Below, piece after piece: positions 8,489 to 63,515 of a DNA stretch of 64,000 bases. A program made the translations under genes and the position numbers. The notes under the pieces were generated by a model. The model ran no database searches and was not told the origin of the DNA. It saw nothing but the letters and a program-made list of their open reading frames with translations. Positions within the stretch are counted from its first letter, which is position 1; every line of letters starts with the position of its first letter. The stretch is taken from the NCBI RefSeq assembly GCF_003065405.1, contig NZ_CP026947.1:2170001-2234000 (forward strand), written 5' to 3'. Origin of the DNA: Corynebacterium yudongzhengii (GTDB lineage Bacteria > Actinomycetota > Actinomycetes > Mycobacteriales > Mycobacteriaceae).

Positions 8489-9218
8489 CACTGAGACAAC
8501 TGTAGCGGCAGTCGGGTGCGCGACGGGTTTTCGGGTTTTGGGTTGGCGCGCCGGGTAAGCGCAGCCGAAACCGACGCGGCCGCCCCCCCTATAGAGCGCT
8601 AACGCTGGTCGAATTCACCCTCCGTTTCGGAGCGACTCCTTTCGACCAGCGATATCACTGCATGAGAAACCAGACCCCAAGCAGACGCGGAAGCGACACG
8701 GCAAGCCACCTGCGGTGACAGACGGGACCGAAGAGGCAGGCGAGACTGATGAGGCGCACGAACCGTAACCATACAGCCACCACCGCCCGAGCGCCGTATA
8801 GAGCGCTAATGCTGGTCGAATTCACCCTCATAGAAAGGAGTCCTCCTTTCGACCGCGCGAGACTCCTTTCGACCAGCGATATCGCTGCATGAGAAACCAG
8901 ACCCCAAGCAGACGCGAAAGCGACACGGCAAGCCACCTGCGGTGACAGACGGGGCCGAAGAGGCAGGCGAGACTGATGAGGCGCACGAACCGTAACCATA
9001 CAGCCACCACCGCCCGAGCACCCTATAGAGCGCTAACGCTGGTCGAATTCACCCTCATAGAAAGGACGAGCTCCCACCGACAACCACAACACCACCACAC
9101 CCAAAAGCCAGACACCCCGCAGAATCTGTGGGATCCGCCGGCGATGTTCTAGTCGCGGGTAGGATCGAAGCCGGAAATTTGTCCTCATCAGCTAGCTATG
9201 AAGGAGCTTGGAACCGAG
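8489..9218. other. 730-bp gene-free gap between divergent dacB and ppa
   Basis: No credible gene. Short open frames here are created by the repeated DNA: frames in the two tandem units read the same peptide twice. The gap is filled by tandem GGTCGAA elements (see next entry); about 100 bp at the left (8489-8589) and 150 bp at the right (9073-9218) are unique and must hold the dacB and ppa promoters. An AAGGAG box at 9201-9206 serves ppa. Confidence 0.8.
8590..9072. repeat. tandem array carrying three GGTCGAA palindromic elements
   Basis: Two nearly identical units begin at 8590 and 8797 (both starting TATAGAGCGCTAA), and a third, truncated unit starts at 9024; the unit lengths are 207 and 227 bp. 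Each unit consists of a GGTCGAA element (8590-8664; 8797-8893; left half only at 9024-9072) followed by about 135 bp of spacer that is almost identical in the two complete copies. The first element has a shortened centre, which accounts for the 20-bp length difference. This is the only site in the window where these elements are arranged as direct repeats, and the only one between divergent genes. Confidence 0.85.
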
Positions 9219-29078: not shown

Positions 29079-29195
29079 ATGCGGCGGTATCGTTTTAGCA
29101 CGCCCGGTCGAAAGGGGGGCCCTAAAGGAGTCCCGCGCGGTCGAAACCAGGACTCCTTTCTGTGCAACTCGTTTCGACCAGCGATAGCGCGGCAT
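29079..29195. repeat. GGTCGAA palindromic element (mnhG / hydrolase gap)
   Basis: The ends ATGCGGCGGTATCG and CGATAGCGCGGCAT form terminal inverted repeats. Inside are GGTCGAAA (29106), CCTAAAGGAGTC, a central GGTCGAAACCAG in the same orientation, ACTCCTTTC and the closing TTTCGACCAG. It occupies most of the gap between the convergent genes mnhG and the hydrolase gene. Confidence 0.85.
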
Positions 29196-33684: not shown

Positions 33685-33766
33685 GTGCGGTAGCGCTGGT
33701 CGAAAGCAGTCACACCTAAAGGAGTACTGGTTTCGACCAGGCGTGCGAGTGCGATAACGCCGCATG
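33685..33766. repeat. GGTCGAA element
   Basis: Contains TAGCGCTGGTCGAAAGC, CACCTAAAGGAGT and TTTCGACCAGG, then a short insertion before the right tip GCGATAACGCCGCATG. The internal right half is deleted, making this a shortened copy. The same insertion type (CCAGGCGTRCGA) occurs in the element at 40783-40904. Confidence 0.8.
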
Positions 33767-33827
33767 GCCGGTAGGGCGCCTAGCGTTCTGACGATCTGCT
33801 TTTCGGTGCGGTTTGACGTTTCTGCTG

Positions 33828-33933
33828 CACAAAGGCTTGAAAGAAGGTGCTTGTAGGGCGTGTCCTATAAGGTTTTGTGTGAGAAAATGGCCCGATTTTG
33901 CGTCCTACAAGGTTCTTTCTTCAGGCATTTGTG
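33828..33933. repeat. 106-bp palindromic element, copy 1
   Basis: Two 33-base arms, beginning CACAAAGGCTTGAA and ending (as complement) CACAAATGCCTGAAG, enclose a 40-bp centre containing GGTTTTGTGTGAG. The inner arm reads TTGTAGG on the left and CCTACAA on the right. Copy 2 at 40966-41071 has the same length and centre. Confidence 0.8.
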
Positions 33934-33991
33934 TTCGAATGGCCCGCAGGTCCCACAGAACTGACCGCGATCAGGCCTGCGCCCCGCATCC

Positions 33992-34112
33992 GCATAGAGC
34001 GCTAGCGCTGGTCGAAAGCACCATCACGAAAAGACCCCACAAACACCCTTCCTTTCGACCGCGCGGGACTCCTTTATATAGACCTGATTTCGACCAGCGC
34101 TACCGCAGCATG
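33992..34112. repeat. GGTCGAA element
   Basis: Complete copy with left tip GCATAGAGCGCTAGCGCTGG and right tip CCAGCGCTACCGCAGCATGG. The left half is diverged (ACGAAAAGACCCCAC), but the central TTTCGACCGCGCGGGACTCC is standard. This copy is absent at the matching place in the homologous block near 41111-41130. Confidence 0.85.
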
Positions 34113-34207
34113 GCAGGAGGAGCCTGACGGACCGCCGGAGCCCCACAGAAGTGATTGATGAGGCTGGCGGGACGACCAGGCAGCAGAGTCGCACGCCCGC
34201 CCGGCCA

Positions 34208-34323
34208 CATGCTCATACCGCACTACCGCTGGTCGAAAGCGCCCCTATAGAAAGGGCTCTCACACGGTCGAAACCAGCACTCCTTTAGGGGTGGCTGTTT
34301 TCGACCAGCGCTAGCGCAACATG
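34208..34323. repeat. GGTCGAA element
   Basis: Full-length copy ending CGCTAGCGCAACATG. Inside: GGTCGAAAGCGCCCC, AGAAAGGGCTCT, central GGTCGAAACCAG and TTTAGGGGTGGCTG. It is in the opposite orientation to the copy at 33992-34112, as judged by the asymmetric centre, and ends about 55 bp from the stop of the next gene. Confidence 0.85.
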
Positions 34324-40782: not shown

Positions 40783-40904
40783 GCATGTTGCGCTGTCGCT
40801 GGTCAAAAGGAGGAGCATCTAAAGGAGTGCTGATTTCGACCGCGTGAGACTCGTTTAGGGGTGGCTCCTTTCGACCAGGCGTACGAACGCGATACCGCTG
40901 CATG
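40783..40904. repeat. GGTCGAA element
   Basis: Left tip GCATGTTGCGCTGTCGCTGG, a mutated first box (GGTCAAAA), CTAAAGGAGTGCTG, central TTTCGACCGCGTGAG, TTTAGGGGTGGC, then TTTCGACCAGG followed by CGTACGAACG and the right tip GATACCGCTGCATGG. It starts 62 bp after the cls stop. Confidence 0.85.
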
Positions 40905-40965
40905 GCCGCTAGGGTACCTAACGTTCCGAAGGTCCGCTTTTCGGTGCGGTTCCGCGTTGTTGCCA

Positions 40966-41071
40966 CACAAAAGCTTGAAGGAAGATGCTTGAAGGGCGCG
41001 CCCTTCAAGGTTTTGTGTGAGGAAATGGCCTGATTTTGCGCCCTTCAAGGTTCTTCCTTCAAGCATTTGTG
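40966..41071. repeat. 106-bp palindromic element, copy 2
   Basis: Arms of 33 bases, CACAAAAGCTTGAAGGAAG at the left and the complement of CACAAATGCTTGAAGGAAG at the right, enclose a centre with GGTTTTGTGTGAGG. The inner arm reads TTGAAGG and CCTTCAA: both strands changed relative to copy 1 (TTGTAGG/CCTACAA), so pairing is preserved. Confidence 0.82.
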
Positions 41072-41227
41072 CTCGAACACCACGAGACGCCATAAAGTCA
41101 GCCACTGCCGGCCATCACGCTATGCCAGAAGGAGCCTGATAGGTCACAAGGGCACACAGGAGTGACTGATGGGACTAGCGGGACGATCAGGCGGCGGAGC
41201 CATACGCCGCCCAGCCATACGCCCATA

Positions 41228-41343
41228 ACACGCTACCGCTGGTCGAATTCACCATTACGAAAGGAACCCGCAAACGCCCTTCCTTTCGACATCGCGGAGC
41301 TCCTTTCTATGAGGGTGATTTCGACCAGCGCTAGCGCACCATG
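41228..41343. repeat. GGTCGAA element
   Basis: Left tip ACACGCTACCGCTGG and right tip CCAGCGCTAGCGCACCATG. Inside are GGTCGAATTCACC, a diverged TACGAAAGGAACCC, central TTTCGACATCGCGG (one box mutated) and TCCTTTCTATGAGGGTG. It ends 33 bp from the stop of the interrupted transporter gene. Confidence 0.85.
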
Positions 41344-47968: not shown

Positions 47969-51496
<3,528 letters not shown>

Positions 51497-51590
51497 GGTT
51501 GGTTCGGGTTTTGGTTGTTTTCGGGGGCGTTTGAACTGGAGTTTTGCTTGTTTGCTTTCTGCTGGGGGCGGGTGTGGTGCTGTTTTCGTC

Positions 51591-51687
51591 GCCTGGTCGA
51601 AAACAGCCACCCCTAAAGGAGTGCTGGTTTCGACCGCGCGAGAGCCCTTTCTATGAGGGTGAATTCGACCAGCGCTAGCGCAACATG
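51591..51687. repeat. GGTCGAA element
   Basis: Left boundary CCTGGTCGAAAACAG without a tip; then CCCCTAAAGGAGTGCTGG, central TTTCGACCGCGCGAGAG, CTTTCTATGAGGGTG and right tip AATTCGACCAGCGCTAGCG followed by CAACATG. Confidence 0.88.
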
Positions 51688-51800
51688 TTGGGTTGGTGCG
51701 TGGGATGCGAGGCGTGGGTAGTCAGTTGCCTCACTAGTCACGCTTTTCCCAGCAGTCTCACCGGGAGTCCATGAAAGCCGGTTCGGCCGTCCGCGCACTC

Positions 51801-51897
51801 ACCTGGTCGAAAGCAGCCGCCCCTAAAGGAGTGCTGGTTTCGACCGCGCGAGAGTCCTTTCTATAGGGGCGCTTTCGACCAGCGTTAACGCGGCATG
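51801..51897. repeat. GGTCGAA element
   Basis: Left boundary CCTGGTCGAAAGCAG, then CCCCTAAAGGAGTGCTGG, central TTTCGACCGCGCGAGAG, TCCTTTCTATAGGGGCG and right tip CGACCAGCGTTAACGCGGCATG. It is in the same orientation as the element at 51591. Confidence 0.88.
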
Positions 51898-52010
51898 TGG
51901 GGCCGACGGGCGGGATGTGGGGTGCGGGCAGGCACTCACGGCCTCTTGTTGCCTGCCGAAGTTTTGATTAGAGCGTACGGAGGGTCCGTCGGCAAGCGAA
52001 GTTCGGAAAG

Positions 52011-52059
52011 CTGTGGATAACGATCGGCAGAAACGCGCCAATCGACCGGTTATCCACAG
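52011..52059. promoter_or_regulatory. inverted pair of DnaA-box sequences
   Basis: CTGTGGATAAC (52011-52021) and GTTATCCACAG (52049-52059) form an 11-bp perfect dyad with a 27-bp spacer. Each arm contains the exact DnaA box TTATCCACA or its complement. It lies 52 bp before the DUF559 gene start. It may be an operator for that gene or a DnaA-titration site; two boxes are too few for an origin. Confidence 0.65.
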
Positions 52060-52110
52060 GTGCGACAGCAGTGCCAGCGGTCATGGGCGCACATACGCAA
52101 GGATGAGGCC

Positions 52111-53040
52111 ATGCATAACTGGACCGCACATTTCAAGCTTTTGGAGCTTCGCAAAGTCAAGCTCAGCAATGATTTCGTCTACCAACAACTGCACGAGGGT
52201 AAGCTCATCCGGCTGACCGGCGAAATCGCCATGCCGGCGGATCGCTATGAGGAACTGCCGCCGTGGCAACGCGCGACGGCGATGGCGATGGCGGTGGGGA
52301 AGACCGTCGATAAGGCGGTGGTCAGCGGAGTAGCCGCCGCTCTCCTACACGGGCTGCCCGTCCTCAGCTACGACGGGCCCATCGATCTGACGCTGCCATC
52401 CGGGAAGCAGCCGGCGCCGCATCTCGTGCCGCCGGGGCGTCGCTATCACTCGGCGGCGTTGCCGAAGGAGCACATCATCGAGGTCCGGGGCGTGCGGGTA
52501 ACCACCCTCGCTCGCACGATTCTCGACATCACACGCTGGGAAGGCATCATCGCCCGCGTCATTGCTCTCGAAGGCGTGCTACACCGACACCCCCACCTCA
52601 GCCTCGAGACGCTCCGTCACAGCGCTTTCGGCCGTCCGCACCCCGGCTCCCGAGCCGTCCGCGAAGTCTTTCACCTCGCACGCCCCGGCATCGAAAGCCC
52701 GCTGGAGTCCTGGGCGCGTGTACTGATCCTGCAGTCCGACCTCGAGTGCACCGTCCGCACGCAGGTGAAGATCGGCGCACACAGGGTCGACATGCTCATC
52801 GACGACCACATCATCGTCGAAGTCGACGGTGCCTTCAAGTACGACGGCACCACCTTCGGAAAGACAGACGATGTGCTGCGCATGGAACGCAAACGCGAAA
52901 AAGACCTGCAAAACCGCGGTTTTTGGGTGCTGCGCGTCGAACGTGACGATCTGATCGAACGCCCGGATGGGACAGTACCGCTCATCGAGATGCTGCGCGG
53001 CGCCCTGGCTCGCGGGCGCGGGCTCGGACTCGGGGCGTAG
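52111..53040 (+). CDS. AbiEi-antitoxin-like N-terminus with DUF559 (VSR-fold endonuclease-like) domain
   Basis: A 309-residue protein. The N-terminal part (RKVKLSNDFVYQQLHEGKLIRLTGEIAMP) resembles the winged-helix start of AbiEi-type antitoxin proteins; the C-terminal ~110 residues are DUF559, with IESPLESWARVLIL, HRVDMLIDDHIIVEVDGAFKY and RGFWVLRVERDDL, where the Asp, Glu and nearby Lys fit a PD-(D/E)xK-type nuclease core. Start ATG at 52111 with AAGGATGAGG upstream; the frame extends to 52060. It stands alone, without a toxin partner, inside a 357-bp inverted repeat between pknG and ackA. Confidence 0.78.
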   Translation: MHNWTAHFKLLELRKVKLSNDFVYQQLHEGKLIRLTGEIAMPADRYEELPPWQRATAMAMAVGKTVDKAVVSGVAAALLHGLPVLSYDGPIDLTLPSGKQPAPHLVPPGRRYHSAALPKEHIIEVRGVRVTTLARTILDITRWEGIIARVIALEGVLHRHPHLSLETLRHSAFGRPHPGSRAVREVFHLARPGIESPLESWARVLILQSDLECTVRTQVKIGAHRVDMLIDDHIIVEVDGAFKYDGTTFGKTDDVLRMERKREKDLQNRGFWVLRVERDDLIERPDGTVPLIEMLRGALARGRGLGLGA

Positions 53041-53089
53041 AGCGCGAGGCTGGTGCCGGGGGTTCTGGGTGTTGTGGTGGCGCGTTTTG

Positions 53090-53185
53090 CATGTTGCGAT
53101 AGGGCTGGCCAAAAGCGCCCCTATAGGAAGGACTCTCGCGCGGTCGAAACCAGCACTCCTTTAGGGGCGGCTGCTTTCGACCAGG
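53090..53185. repeat. GGTCGAA element
   Basis: Left tip CATGTTGCGATAGGGCTGG with the box mutated to GGCCAAAA; then CCCCTATAGGAAGGAC, central GGTCGAAACCAGCACTCC, TTTAGGGGCGGC and TTTCGACCAGG. Inverse counterpart of the element at 51801-51897. Confidence 0.85.
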
Positions 53186-53299
53186 TGAGTGCGCGGACGG
53201 CCGAACCGGCTTTCATGGACTCCCGGTGAGACTGCTGGGAAAAGCGTGACTAGTGAGGCAACTGACTACCCACGCCTCGCATCCCACGCACCAACCCAA

Positions 53300-53396
53300 C
53301 ATGTTGCGCTAGCGCTGGTCGAATTCACCCTCATAGAAAGGGCTCTCGCGCGGTCGAAACCAGCACTCCTTTAGGGGTGGCTGTTTTCGACCAGGC
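53300..53396. repeat. GGTCGAA element
   Basis: Left tip CATGTTGCGCTAGCGCTGG, GGTCGAATTCACCC, AGAAAGGGCTCTCGCG, central GGTCGAAACCAGCACTCC, TTTAGGGGTGGC and TTTTCGACCAGG. Inverse counterpart of the element at 51591-51687. Confidence 0.88.
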
Positions 53397-53492
53397 GACG
53401 AAAACAGCACCAAACCCGCCCTCAGCAGAAAGCAAGCAAGCAAAACCGCAGGTCAAGCGTCCGCGAAGCACCACGCAAACCCGCGAAATCGC

Positions 53493-54689
53493 CTACCCCA
53501 CCAACCGGTCGACCTTCTGCGCGATGGCGAGCTCTTCGTTGGTGGGCACGACGTAGACGCGGGTGGGCGAGTCGTCGGTGCTGATGAGCTGGACGCCTTC
53601 GCCGACGCTCTCGTTGCGCGAGTCGTCGAGTTTGACGCCGAAGTTCTCCAGGTCGGCGAGCGCGAGGCGGCGCAGCACGGGGTCGTTCTCGCCGACGCCG
53701 GCGGTGAACGCGATGGCGTCGACGCGCCCGAGCTGGATCATGTAGGAACCGAGGATGCGGCGCAGCTGGGTGACGTAGACGTCGAGGGCGAGCTGGGCGT
53801 CTTGGCTGCCGTCCTTGATCATCTGGTGGATGTCGCGGAAGTCGTTGGAGCCGGCCAGGCCTTTCATGCCGGAGCGCTTGTTCAGCAGTTTGTCGATACC
53901 GTCGATGCTCAGGCCGACCTCGCGGTAGAGGTGGAAGATGATGCCGGGGTCGATGGAACCGCAGCGGGTGCCCATGACGAGGCCTTCGAGCGGGGTCATG
54001 CCCATCGAGGTGTCGATGGGCTTGCCGCCGCGCACCGCCGAGGCGGAGGCACCGTTGCCGAGGTGCAGCGTGATGTGGTTGATCTCCTCGGCGGGCTGGT
54101 CGAACTGCTTGTGCAGCTCGCCGGCGATGAACTCGTGCGAGGTGCCATGGAAGCCGTAGCGGCGGATGTGGTATTCCTCGCGCAGCGACTTCTCGATCGC
54201 ATAGACCGCCGCCGAATCCGGCAGGTCAGAGAAGTAGGCGGTGTCGAAGACGCCGACGTGCGGGAGGTTCGGAAGCAGGCGGCGGGCGACCTCGATGCCG
54301 TCGATGTTCGCCGGGTTGTGCAGCGGGGCGAGGGGGATGAGTTCGCGGAGGGTGGAGACGACGGTTTCGTCGAGAAGCACCGGCTCCGAGAAGATGGTGC
54401 CGCCGTGAACGATGCGGTGACCCACGGCGTTGATGTCCAGCTGGGTGGGGCCGCAGCCCAGGCGGTCGAGCTCCGCGAAGGCGCGCTTGAAGCCGGCGGT
54501 GTGGTTGGGGATCGTCAGCACGTGCTCGTGCTTCTCGCCGTTGTGCTTGATGGTGAGGCCGCCGCGGAATTCACCGATCTTCTCGACGAGCCCCGAGACC
54601 AACGGGGTGTCCGTGGCACCGGCGGAGGGGTCGACGATCTGGAACTTGATCGACGAGGAGCCGGAGTTGATCACGAGTACATAGGACAT
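53493..54689 (-). CDS. ackA: acetate kinase
   Basis: Interconverts acetyl phosphate plus ADP and acetate plus ATP. The 398-residue ASKHA-fold enzyme has the N-terminal [64 protein letters not shown] and FTAGVGEND. All are intact. It starts 3 bp after the pta stop and is the second gene of the classical pta-ackA operon for acetate activation and overflow. Confidence 0.97.
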
Positions 54690-57590: not shown

Positions 57591-58096
57591 GTTTGGGCTT
57601 GCTTTTGGGCTCGCGTTTGCGGTGGCTGCGTTTTCGCTGGTGAGCTGAGCGTTCTGCGCTGTTCGTCCATGATACTGTAGCGCAACACGAGAGCTTGGGC
57701 GGACGGGCGGTTAGGGTCGCCGGCCAGTCTTTTTATCCGTCTCGTCGGTTTCTTCTGTGGGGCTTGCGCGACCTTTTAGGTTTGCCTGCCATGCAGCGCT
57801 AGCGCTGGTCGAAAGGAATCACCCCTAAAGGAGTCCTGGTTTCGACCGCGTGGGGCTCCTTTCTATGGGGGTGATTTCGACCAGGCGTCTGACTAAACGC
57901 GTTAAACGGCGTTTAAGTTTCTGCTGTGACGGATGGGGTTGGTGCGTGGACTGAGGTGGAGCTCCCGGGCGCCTACAGGCTTCCGGTTAGCCCGCGTTCG
58001 TCTTGCGCTAGCGCAACAGGCGCCCGTCGAGAAACGACAGCACCAGTGAGACGCATGGCACCACAACCGCACCCCAACAGTCCCGAAAACCCAGCC
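57591..58096. other. 505-bp gap between convergent fprA and purT
   Basis: No gene is recognised. It holds one GGTCGAA element (57790-57885), and 115 bp further the 14-bp perfect palindrome TTGCGCTAGCGCAA (58003-58016), which equals two GGTCGAA-element tips joined. An 8-bp dyad GCGTTAAACGGCGTTTAA-like sequence follows the element near 57898. Nothing else stands out. Confidence 0.7.
57790..57885. repeat. GGTCGAA element
   Basis: Left tip CATGCAGCGCTAGCGCTGG, GGTCGAAAGGAATCACC, CCTAAAGGAGTCCTGG, central TTTCGACCGCGTGGGG, CTCCTTTCTATGGGGGTG and TTTCGACCAGG. The right tip is missing at the expected place. Confidence 0.87.
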
Positions 58097-63194: not shown

Positions 63195-63304
63195 CGCATG
63201 GTGCGTTTGCGCTGGTCGAAAGCAGCCGGTCGAAACGAGCACTGGTTTCGACCGCGCGGGACTCCTTTAGGGACACCTCCTTCCGACCAGCGCAAGCGCA
63301 ACAT
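63195..63304. repeat. GGTCGAA element
   Basis: Left tip GCATGGTGCGTTTGCGCTGG, then two GGTCGAAA boxes close together (GGTCGAAAGCAGCC and GGTCGAAACGAGCAC), central TTTCGACCGCGCGGG, ACTCCTTTAGGG, and right tip CCGACCAGCGCAAGCGCAAC followed by ATG. The double left box is a variant shared only with the copy at 63421. Confidence 0.86.
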
Positions 63305-63420
63305 GCGTGCGGGTTGGCCGGGGAGACGAACGGGAGGCATGCCACCACACCGGAACCACCACAATCCACGCTCACGCCCCATCCACCCCACCAGTACCTT
63401 AACGGCGTTTAACCACGCCT

Positions 63421-63515
63421 CCCGGTCGAAAACAACCGGTCGAAACGAGCACTGGTTTCGACTTCGCGGGACTCGTTTAGGAGCACCTGATTTCGACCAG
63501 CGCAGGCGCAACATG
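63421..63515. repeat. GGTCGAA element
   Basis: CCGGTCGAAAACAACC and GGTCGAAACGAGCACTGG, central TTTCGACTTCGCGGG, ACTCGTTTAGGAG and right tip TTTCGACCAGCGCAGGCGCA with ACATG. It is in the same orientation as the copy at 63195, and both lie between the DUF2382 gene and the convergent Lrp-type gene. Confidence 0.86.

Follow-up and report, generated by a model that had tools for sequence, protein, structure and literature searches.

Repetitive extragenic palindromic (REP) sequences and the REP-associated tyrosine transposases (RAYTs) are the closest described counterparts of the arrangement reported here. PMC2817692 describes RAYT genes as flanked, without exception, by a pair of inverted palindromes. 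By that account the palindromes are dispersed, abundant, extragenic and species-specific, commonly form doublets and, in some species, accumulate around the gene, while RAYT genes diverge faster than their neighbours and enzyme and palindrome coevolve. Here, we examine a 64,000-nt stretch of Corynebacterium yudongzhengii DNA (hereafter the window; positions 2170001-2234000 of a 2.51-Mb genome in a single contig), in which an orphan gene for a DUF559 nuclease with an AbiEi-like N-terminal part lies inside an inverted repeat built of 80-nt palindromic elements. Inverted palindromes recur around DUF559 genes in this genus and outside it, and this recurrent unit of gene plus palindrome around an orphan nuclease is a larger finding than the single locus. 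The unit appears to be a small element of gene and repeats of a kind not described before.

Each of the RAYT-REP traits listed in PMC2817692, other than species specificity, on which the palindrome families differ, is present for DUF559 units at least in part, and the DUF559 unit may, by analogy, work like a RAYT with its REPs. The two differ in several respects. A third to a half of DUF559 loci are bracketed, whereas RAYT genes are said to be flanked always; the DUF559 enzyme is a Vsr-like PD-(D/E)XK nuclease, whereas a RAYT is an HUH tyrosine transposase; and the DUF559 arms are longer, with a median of 71.5 nt over 42 bracketed loci against the 20-40 bp given for REPs in the abstract of PMC3733652. 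The GT(A/G)G head of RAYT-REP systems was not shared by the copies of three palindrome families, as read by eye, and Y1/HUH (PF01797) was absent among the five Pfam families matched by 30 DUF559 proteins (E <= 0.01). With no Y1/HUH domain, no GT(A/G)G head and longer repeats, the DUF559 unit is therefore not a RAYT.

IS200/IS605 elements and their palindrome-ended derivatives carry imperfect palindromes at both ends and are not known to make a target duplication. The window-family palindromes resemble them in standing at both ends and in the lack of a target duplication of 2-8 nt; a difference is that the 30 DUF559 proteins scanned match no Y1/HUH transposase family in Pfam. As for the protein itself, the window gene product shares an AbiEi-like N-terminal part with AbiEi/AbiEii systems but has no AbiEii partner alongside; none was found adjoining the gene, whose neighbours are pknG and ackA. 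Its nuclease domain family also includes Caulobacter VsrA, a Vsr-like DUF559 protein described as a putative mismatch-repair endonuclease (PMC12907096), and the MTES_1575 REase, described as a domain of a large fusion protein (PMC3710099), and the available text of these two sources mentions no palindromes. Among open-licence PMC papers, covered by their titles and the starts of their abstracts, no such nuclease-plus-palindrome system was described.

A nuclease gene framed by palindromic doublets

The inverted repeat around the DUF559/AbiEi-like gene between pknG and ackA is confirmed. A repeat search of the window gave arms of 378 nt each, 96% complementary and separated by 1192 nt (Table 1); the earlier note had placed them at 51541-51897 and 53090-53447, which is a real, near-identical inverted repeat and the best part of these longer arms. 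The inner arm ends coincide with CATG (51894-51897 and 53090-53093). All other places in the genome that match across both doublet elements do so at 71-77% identity, and the arm pair is thus not a product of chance. As the earlier note had it, the frame is made of small palindromic elements, each arm comprising a doublet of an imperfectly palindromic 80-nt element, 210 nt start to start, of the form CTGGTCGAAA...TTTCGACCAG, its ends often taking the form CGCTAGCGCAACATG. Its description of a single enclosed gene with an AbiEi-like N-terminus and a DUF559 domain was likewise borne out: the protein just passes the Pfam DUF559 model (PF04480; 20.8 bits, cut-off 20.6), falls under the cut-off for MTES_1575 REase (PF18741; 30.1 against 38.2 bits), and is matched by eight AbiEi models of PADLOC, with a best E of 1.1e-9 over residues 55-142. 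A PDB sequence search with the protein returned two rows, both at chance level. That the unit is an insertion between pknG and ackA, a further proposal of that note, agrees with the gap being shorter than 200 bp in 11 of 30 pknG loci and 592-1320 bp, mostly with an open reading frame (ORF), in 10; ackA was not seen within the stretch in the other 9, the window's own locus included.

Inverted repeats recur around DUF559 genes

Inverted repeats of other sequence flank the gap gene in three other genomes (G140, G075 and G019) and, weakly, in a fourth (G103; 20 nt by viewing, score 16 in the test described below), and L074, the same locus as L147, has inverted repeats of 50 and 32 nt; inspection of the other gap loci revealed nothing convincing at L079, L083 and L087. 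Since gap genes thus have different inverted repeats of their own, the question moved from one locus to the gene family. We therefore scored the best inverted match between the 450-bp flanks of each DUF559 locus and called a locus bracketed at a score of at least 20, a threshold chosen after seeing the controls. In the genus, 27 of 78 DUF559 loci were bracketed, the window's included. None of 312 Markov-shuffled flank pairs reached the threshold and 3 of 312 swapped ones did, and the three positive swapped pairs were all between related proteins (L045/L043, L184/L172 and L032/L167). Lowering the threshold to 17 gives 31/78 loci, 0/312 shuffled and 8/312 swapped pairs. PIN-domain genes of the genus were never bracketed (0/30; maximum score 15, or 17 with 800-bp flanks), nor were pknG genes (0/29, with 500-bp flanks). 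Outside the genus, bracketing was found at 15 of 28 DUF559 loci and in 1 of 224 swapped pairs. Grouped at 50% identity or more, 15 of 39 protein clusters have a bracketed member. The earlier note had suggested looking for such frames at other DUF559 genes, and many genes do have them, with sequences that differ from those of the window.

The 78 loci consist of 8 gap loci and 70 of the best-scoring protein matches, the window's among them, and are not a random sample. They were drawn from 82 genus loci, with L147, L152 and L154 left out for want of a tblastn match and L151 for a short flank; the set from outside the genus comprises 28 of 29 loci, L263 being left out for a short flank, and the seven gap stretches L158-L164, together with L145 and L251-L254, stood outside the test. 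In a smaller set of 30 loci, 7 score 20 or more, as do 2 of 120 swapped pairs (24 and 26), and an earlier variant with 900-bp flanks gave scores of 300-441 for 3 of its 150 swapped controls.

The right arm begins 60 bp or less from the stop codon in 36 of the 42 bracketed loci, and at least one arm folds better than shuffles (z <= -2, RNA energies) in 26. The best arms in the genus are those of L176 (93 nt, 98%), L184 (102 nt, 88%), L189 (100 nt, 88%) and L169 (104 nt, 78%), and the best example from outside it is L280 (71 nt at 92%). At two other loci from outside the genus, L262 and L277, short repeated motifs bracket the DUF559 gene in place of one long palindrome; at L262 this is an 18-nt motif with four copies per side.

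Palindrome families are dispersed within genomes

All five palindrome families that were followed up have extra copies beyond the bracketing pair. The window element is the most abundant: a covariance model placed it at 144 or more distinct places in its own genome, in 94 clusters, a lower bound with 150 of 1657 candidates scored, and BLAST of the genome with the element gave at least 78 matches (40 of 120 candidates scored). The 19-nt end pattern, with at most one mismatch allowed, had 205 matches in this genome; among 241 other genomes of the genus, 4 had a single match apiece. Exact matches of the window pattern in the genomes of 84,980 species, a collection from which the window's own record was possibly left out, came to 21 scattered single matches in other bacteria, and viral contigs gave 7 matches to the window repeat; we rejected wide sharing of the repeat on these three counts. 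Two copies in the genome, at 1918-1997 (contig C1) and 2383459-2383538, are identical, including 45 nt on each side, which would reflect either recent duplication or gene conversion.

For the 45 window-family clusters in stretches that were read, the gap is convergent in 20 cases, tandem in 19, divergent in 3 and uncalled in 3; one cluster overlaps a predicted ORF under a simple ORF model. Neighbouring elements are regularly spaced, the edge-to-edge gap being 119-120, 129-132, 140-141 or 151-152 nt in 32 of 37 pairs less than 1 kb apart. The steps correspond to about one helical turn and are seen in each of the four relative orientations (for 34 gaps the Rayleigh p is about 1e-12, a value that is too small because the shared descent of doublets was not removed). 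Taken alone, the four elements of the window arms fold with z of -3.7, -4.0, -1.4 and -2.2 against shuffles. An Rfam search with the element gave no match at E <= 1, and we rejected an RNA family on this result and on the scarcity of compensatory change.

Copy numbers are low outside the window species. The G098 palindrome occurs at 5 other places in its own genome, that of G027 at 13 other places in 12 clusters plus half copies, with stems kept and loops varying, and that of G142 at 4 other places, one of them partial. Matches of at least 80 nt to the L184 family were found at 2 or more other places in G036 and at least 6 in G051, with 40 of 149 and 40 of 124 candidates scored, respectively. 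Specificity was examined for the window, G142 and G027 families, the last against one genome, and the G098 family was searched in G098 only: the G142 palindrome had no match in 6 other genomes, and the G027 palindrome had one 46-nt match in G142. Solo copies lie nearer the gene than expected in G098 (P 0.003), G027 (P 0.011) and G142 (P 0.034), and the window species shows such an excess within 100-200 kb (27 clusters inside 200 kb, 14.7 expected, P 0.0009).

Comparison of the near relatives G051 and G036 revealed palindromes at the breakpoints of a rearrangement, which falls short of proof of insertion. A gene region that is contiguous and palindrome-free in G036 is represented in G051 by a 366-bp remnant with a palindrome on either side; 2 of the 4 junctions coincide with palindrome ends, and a further palindrome copy (C80) adjoins this same sequence elsewhere. 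Of 88 elements of the window species, 42 have ends suited to a search for target duplications of 2-8 nt; none of them showed one, and we rejected such duplications as a trace of movement.

The nuclease family keeps its predicted active site and diverges rapidly

DUF559/AbiEi-like genes are common orphans: the window protein has matches in 112 of 151 genomes of the genus, and a 30-protein profile has matches in 136 of 150 order-level genomes. The other aligned proteins are 24-44% identical to the window protein, and 22 of 30 homologues match MTES_1575 REase at E <= 0.01. Residues A76, E199, D227, E237, D239, G240, K243, R262 and G270 are invariant in all 30 aligned proteins, and these include the four predicted PD-(D/E)XK residues, D227, E237, D239 and K243, which we take to be catalytic. 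Carriage of the gene by phages or plasmids was rejected on searches with one protein as query, which may miss distant homologues: at E <= 1e-5 the window protein had no match among 50,697 phage records, and at E <= 1e-8 it had two among 72,556 plasmid records, one of them 11.85 Mb long and chromosome-like.

The gene diverges faster than its surroundings: of 13 orthologous pairs profiled, 8 drop clearly in identity over the gene and the flanks next to it. In L030/L031, identity is mostly 88-100% outside and 28-83% inside; in L146/L148, a pair at the pknG-ackA gap, it is mostly 92-100% on the left, 95% on the right (a single window of the scan) and 33-83% inside; and L039/L175, L040/L175 and L191/L198 also drop clearly at the gene. 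Protein identity against that of the context is 52% versus 88/82% for L165/L168 and 64% versus 94/97% for L030/L031, where the neighbour values are flattered because they come from the best tblastx segment. Palindrome similarity follows protein similarity (Mantel r 0.257, p 0.0002, 31 context-collapsed groups), and the mean palindrome cross-score is 10.7 for the 12 pairs with at least 45% protein identity against 8.7 for the rest (p 0.0008).

A nuclease that may spread its own palindromes

From the sequence comparisons, we suggest that these loci are small, mostly chromosomal elements of the form palindrome - DUF559 nuclease gene - palindrome, in which the nuclease would recognise, cut and spread its cognate palindrome, and we assign this reading a probability of roughly 0.55. 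The AbiEi-like N-terminal part would presumably bind DNA and the Vsr-like PD-(D/E)XK domain would serve as the nuclease, so that the protein would recognise its cognate palindrome as DNA and nick or cut there. Such nicking or cutting could yield extra palindrome copies elsewhere, preferentially near the gene, and the DUF559 gene itself would stay put while the palindromes spread. The mode of action would resemble that of a RAYT on REPs, performed by an unrelated enzyme, and in the window species the palindrome would have turned into a doublet and reached its many genome-wide places. We put forward tentatively the broader idea that this is a second, independent solution of the RAYT-REP kind, in which a PD-(D/E)XK nuclease creates and spreads cognate palindromes and is renewed with new palindromes across lineages. 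If true, such units would make up a class of mobile element that has no known transposase, recombinase or HUH enzyme. If many DUF559 genes carry their own palindromes, the function of these orphans becomes directly testable, the cognate DNA being written beside the gene; species-specific palindromic repeat families beyond the reach of RAYTs would also have a source, and REP-like systems would prove not to depend on one nuclease fold.

A number of observations weigh against this proposal. At the threshold used, 51 of the 78 loci of the genus lack bracketing, as do 24 of the 39 protein clusters. Both arms fold at z <= -2 in only 19 of the 42 bracketed loci, the window arms miss that mark (z -1.5 and -0.7, RNA energies), and the window element shows little compensatory change (2 of 15 pairs). 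The L184 family is common to the near relatives G036 and G051, and hence some palindromes extend beyond a single species. Proximity to the gene in the window species is not significant at 50 kb (7 clusters against 3.7 expected, P 0.07); 6-9% of genome positions are as dense in clusters as the gene's surroundings, and the distances used for proximity were all picked after seeing the data. No identity drop was seen in 4 of the 13 orthologous pairs and a mild one in L041/L042, and three pairs below the bracketing threshold (L165/L168, L181/L203 and L036/L166) drop clearly. Fast divergence is thus a property of the gene family rather than of its bracketed members alone, and our confidence is slightly lowered because it also occurs without bracketing. 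The correlation between palindrome and protein is small (r 0.257), and genome composition could inflate the Mantel result. As for movement, no clean pair of occupied and empty sites was obtained, one G036/G051 site being rearranged and the other not clean, and the lack of 2-8 nt duplications fits REPs yet gives no positive sign that insertion took place. In the 42 window-family elements with suitable ends, the one base that adjoins the element at each end agrees at 0.45 against 0.27 expected.

It is conceivable, though in our view unlikely, that the palindromes are instead binding or protection sites for the nuclease, serving autoregulation, the marking of host DNA or defence, kept matched to the protein by selection and spread by ordinary recombination or by another enzyme. 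Several of our results would suit such sites: palindrome and protein similarity go together, part of the protein is AbiEi-like, the window element shows conserved sequence more than compensatory pairing, and gaps in helical steps, in whatever orientation, are what binding to one helix face would give. However, the palindrome stands inverted on both flanks, where an operator would presumably be needed on one side only, and in G098, G027 and G142 the copies concentrate around the gene.

We consider it improbable that the unit is an invertible cassette, a possibility raised in the earlier note, in which recombination between near-identical arms flips the gene and changes its expression. The length and identity of the window arms would allow it, and opposite DUF559 orientations do occur at the same gap in different species, with one genome per species compared: the gene runs in the direction of pknG in the window, G103 (L077) and G104 (L087), and opposite to it in L073, L075, L079 and L080. 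In a second comparison, the orientation of L149 is opposite to that of L146, L148, L150, L155, L156 and L157; L146, L148 and L149 form one protein cluster (58-64% identity) with both orientations, which fits inversion or separate insertions alike. At other loci, however, the order of both sides is kept in 60 locus pairs and departed from in one (L050, L193). The arms elsewhere are mostly short, and inversion by homologous recombination would therefore not explain bracketing in general; a unique invertible locus as the whole story was rejected on account of the genome-wide elements and the recurrent bracketing.

Less probable again is an ordinary background in which intergenic palindromes, such as terminators or REP-like repeats, gather between genes and an accessory gene landed among them, for although the window elements are intergenic, the same palindrome stands on both sides of the gene, PIN and pknG controls are negative and swapped flanks nearly so, and the swapped-flank and PIN controls largely exclude it.

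Features of the window and contents of the gap

The neighbour of the unit that we take to be pknG has DNA matches in 149 of 151 genomes of the genus. Coordinates of this gene, of ackA and of the dispersed elements in the window are given with those of the main unit in Table 1.

Table 1. Features of the window, numbered from its first letter, and of the rearranged sites in two near relatives, numbered within their loci.
Feature	Position	Strand	Basis
Left arm of inverted repeat (doublet of elements plus flank)	51520..51897	+	repeat search
80-nt palindromic element, left arm copy 1	51593..51672	+	profile search
80-nt palindromic element, left arm copy 2	51803..51882	+	profile search
Element end sequence CGTTAACGCGGCATG, facing the gene (common family form CGCTAGCGCAACATG)	51883..51897	+	read directly
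DUF559/MTES_1575-like nuclease gene, AbiEi-like N-terminal part (ATG at 52111, 309 amino acids)	52111..53040	+	ORF and profile matches
Right arm of inverted repeat	53090..53467	-	repeat search
80-nt palindromic element, right arm inner copy	53105..53184	-	profile search
80-nt palindromic element, right arm outer copy	53315..53394	-	profile search
Three partial elements, window family	8586..9068	.	profile search
Dispersed element, window family	29106..29181	-	profile search
Three dispersed elements, window family, one partial	33696..34308	.	profile search
Two dispersed elements, window family	40799..41328	+	profile search
Dispersed element, window family	57805..57884	+	profile search
Dispersed doublet, window family, 212 nt start to start	63212..63500	+	profile search
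pknG (context; presumed name)	48911..51496	+	kinase models, longest ORF, start not settled
ackA (context)	53493..54689	-	TIGR00016, 438.9 bits
Palindrome copies at rearrangement breakpoints, truncated gene copy left	L312:5697-6330 (G051), L311:1300-3860 (G036)		near-relative comparison

A DUF559 match adjoins pknG in the window's own locus and in L073, L075, L077, L079, L080 and L087, and the L074 gap holds a similar ORF without a tblastn match to the DUF559 query. The pknG-ackA gaps (L071-L100) often hold single accessory genes besides DUF559; by translation, judged by eye, these include a PIN-type toxin pair-like arrangement (L097), a helix-turn-helix protein (L092) and ATPase-like ORFs (L085 and L093). 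The gap of the nearest relative found, G098, holds no inserted gene and a strong palindrome, GACCACGGTTTC...GAAACCGTGGTC (L072:4028-4108), which is perhaps a solo copy of yet another family.

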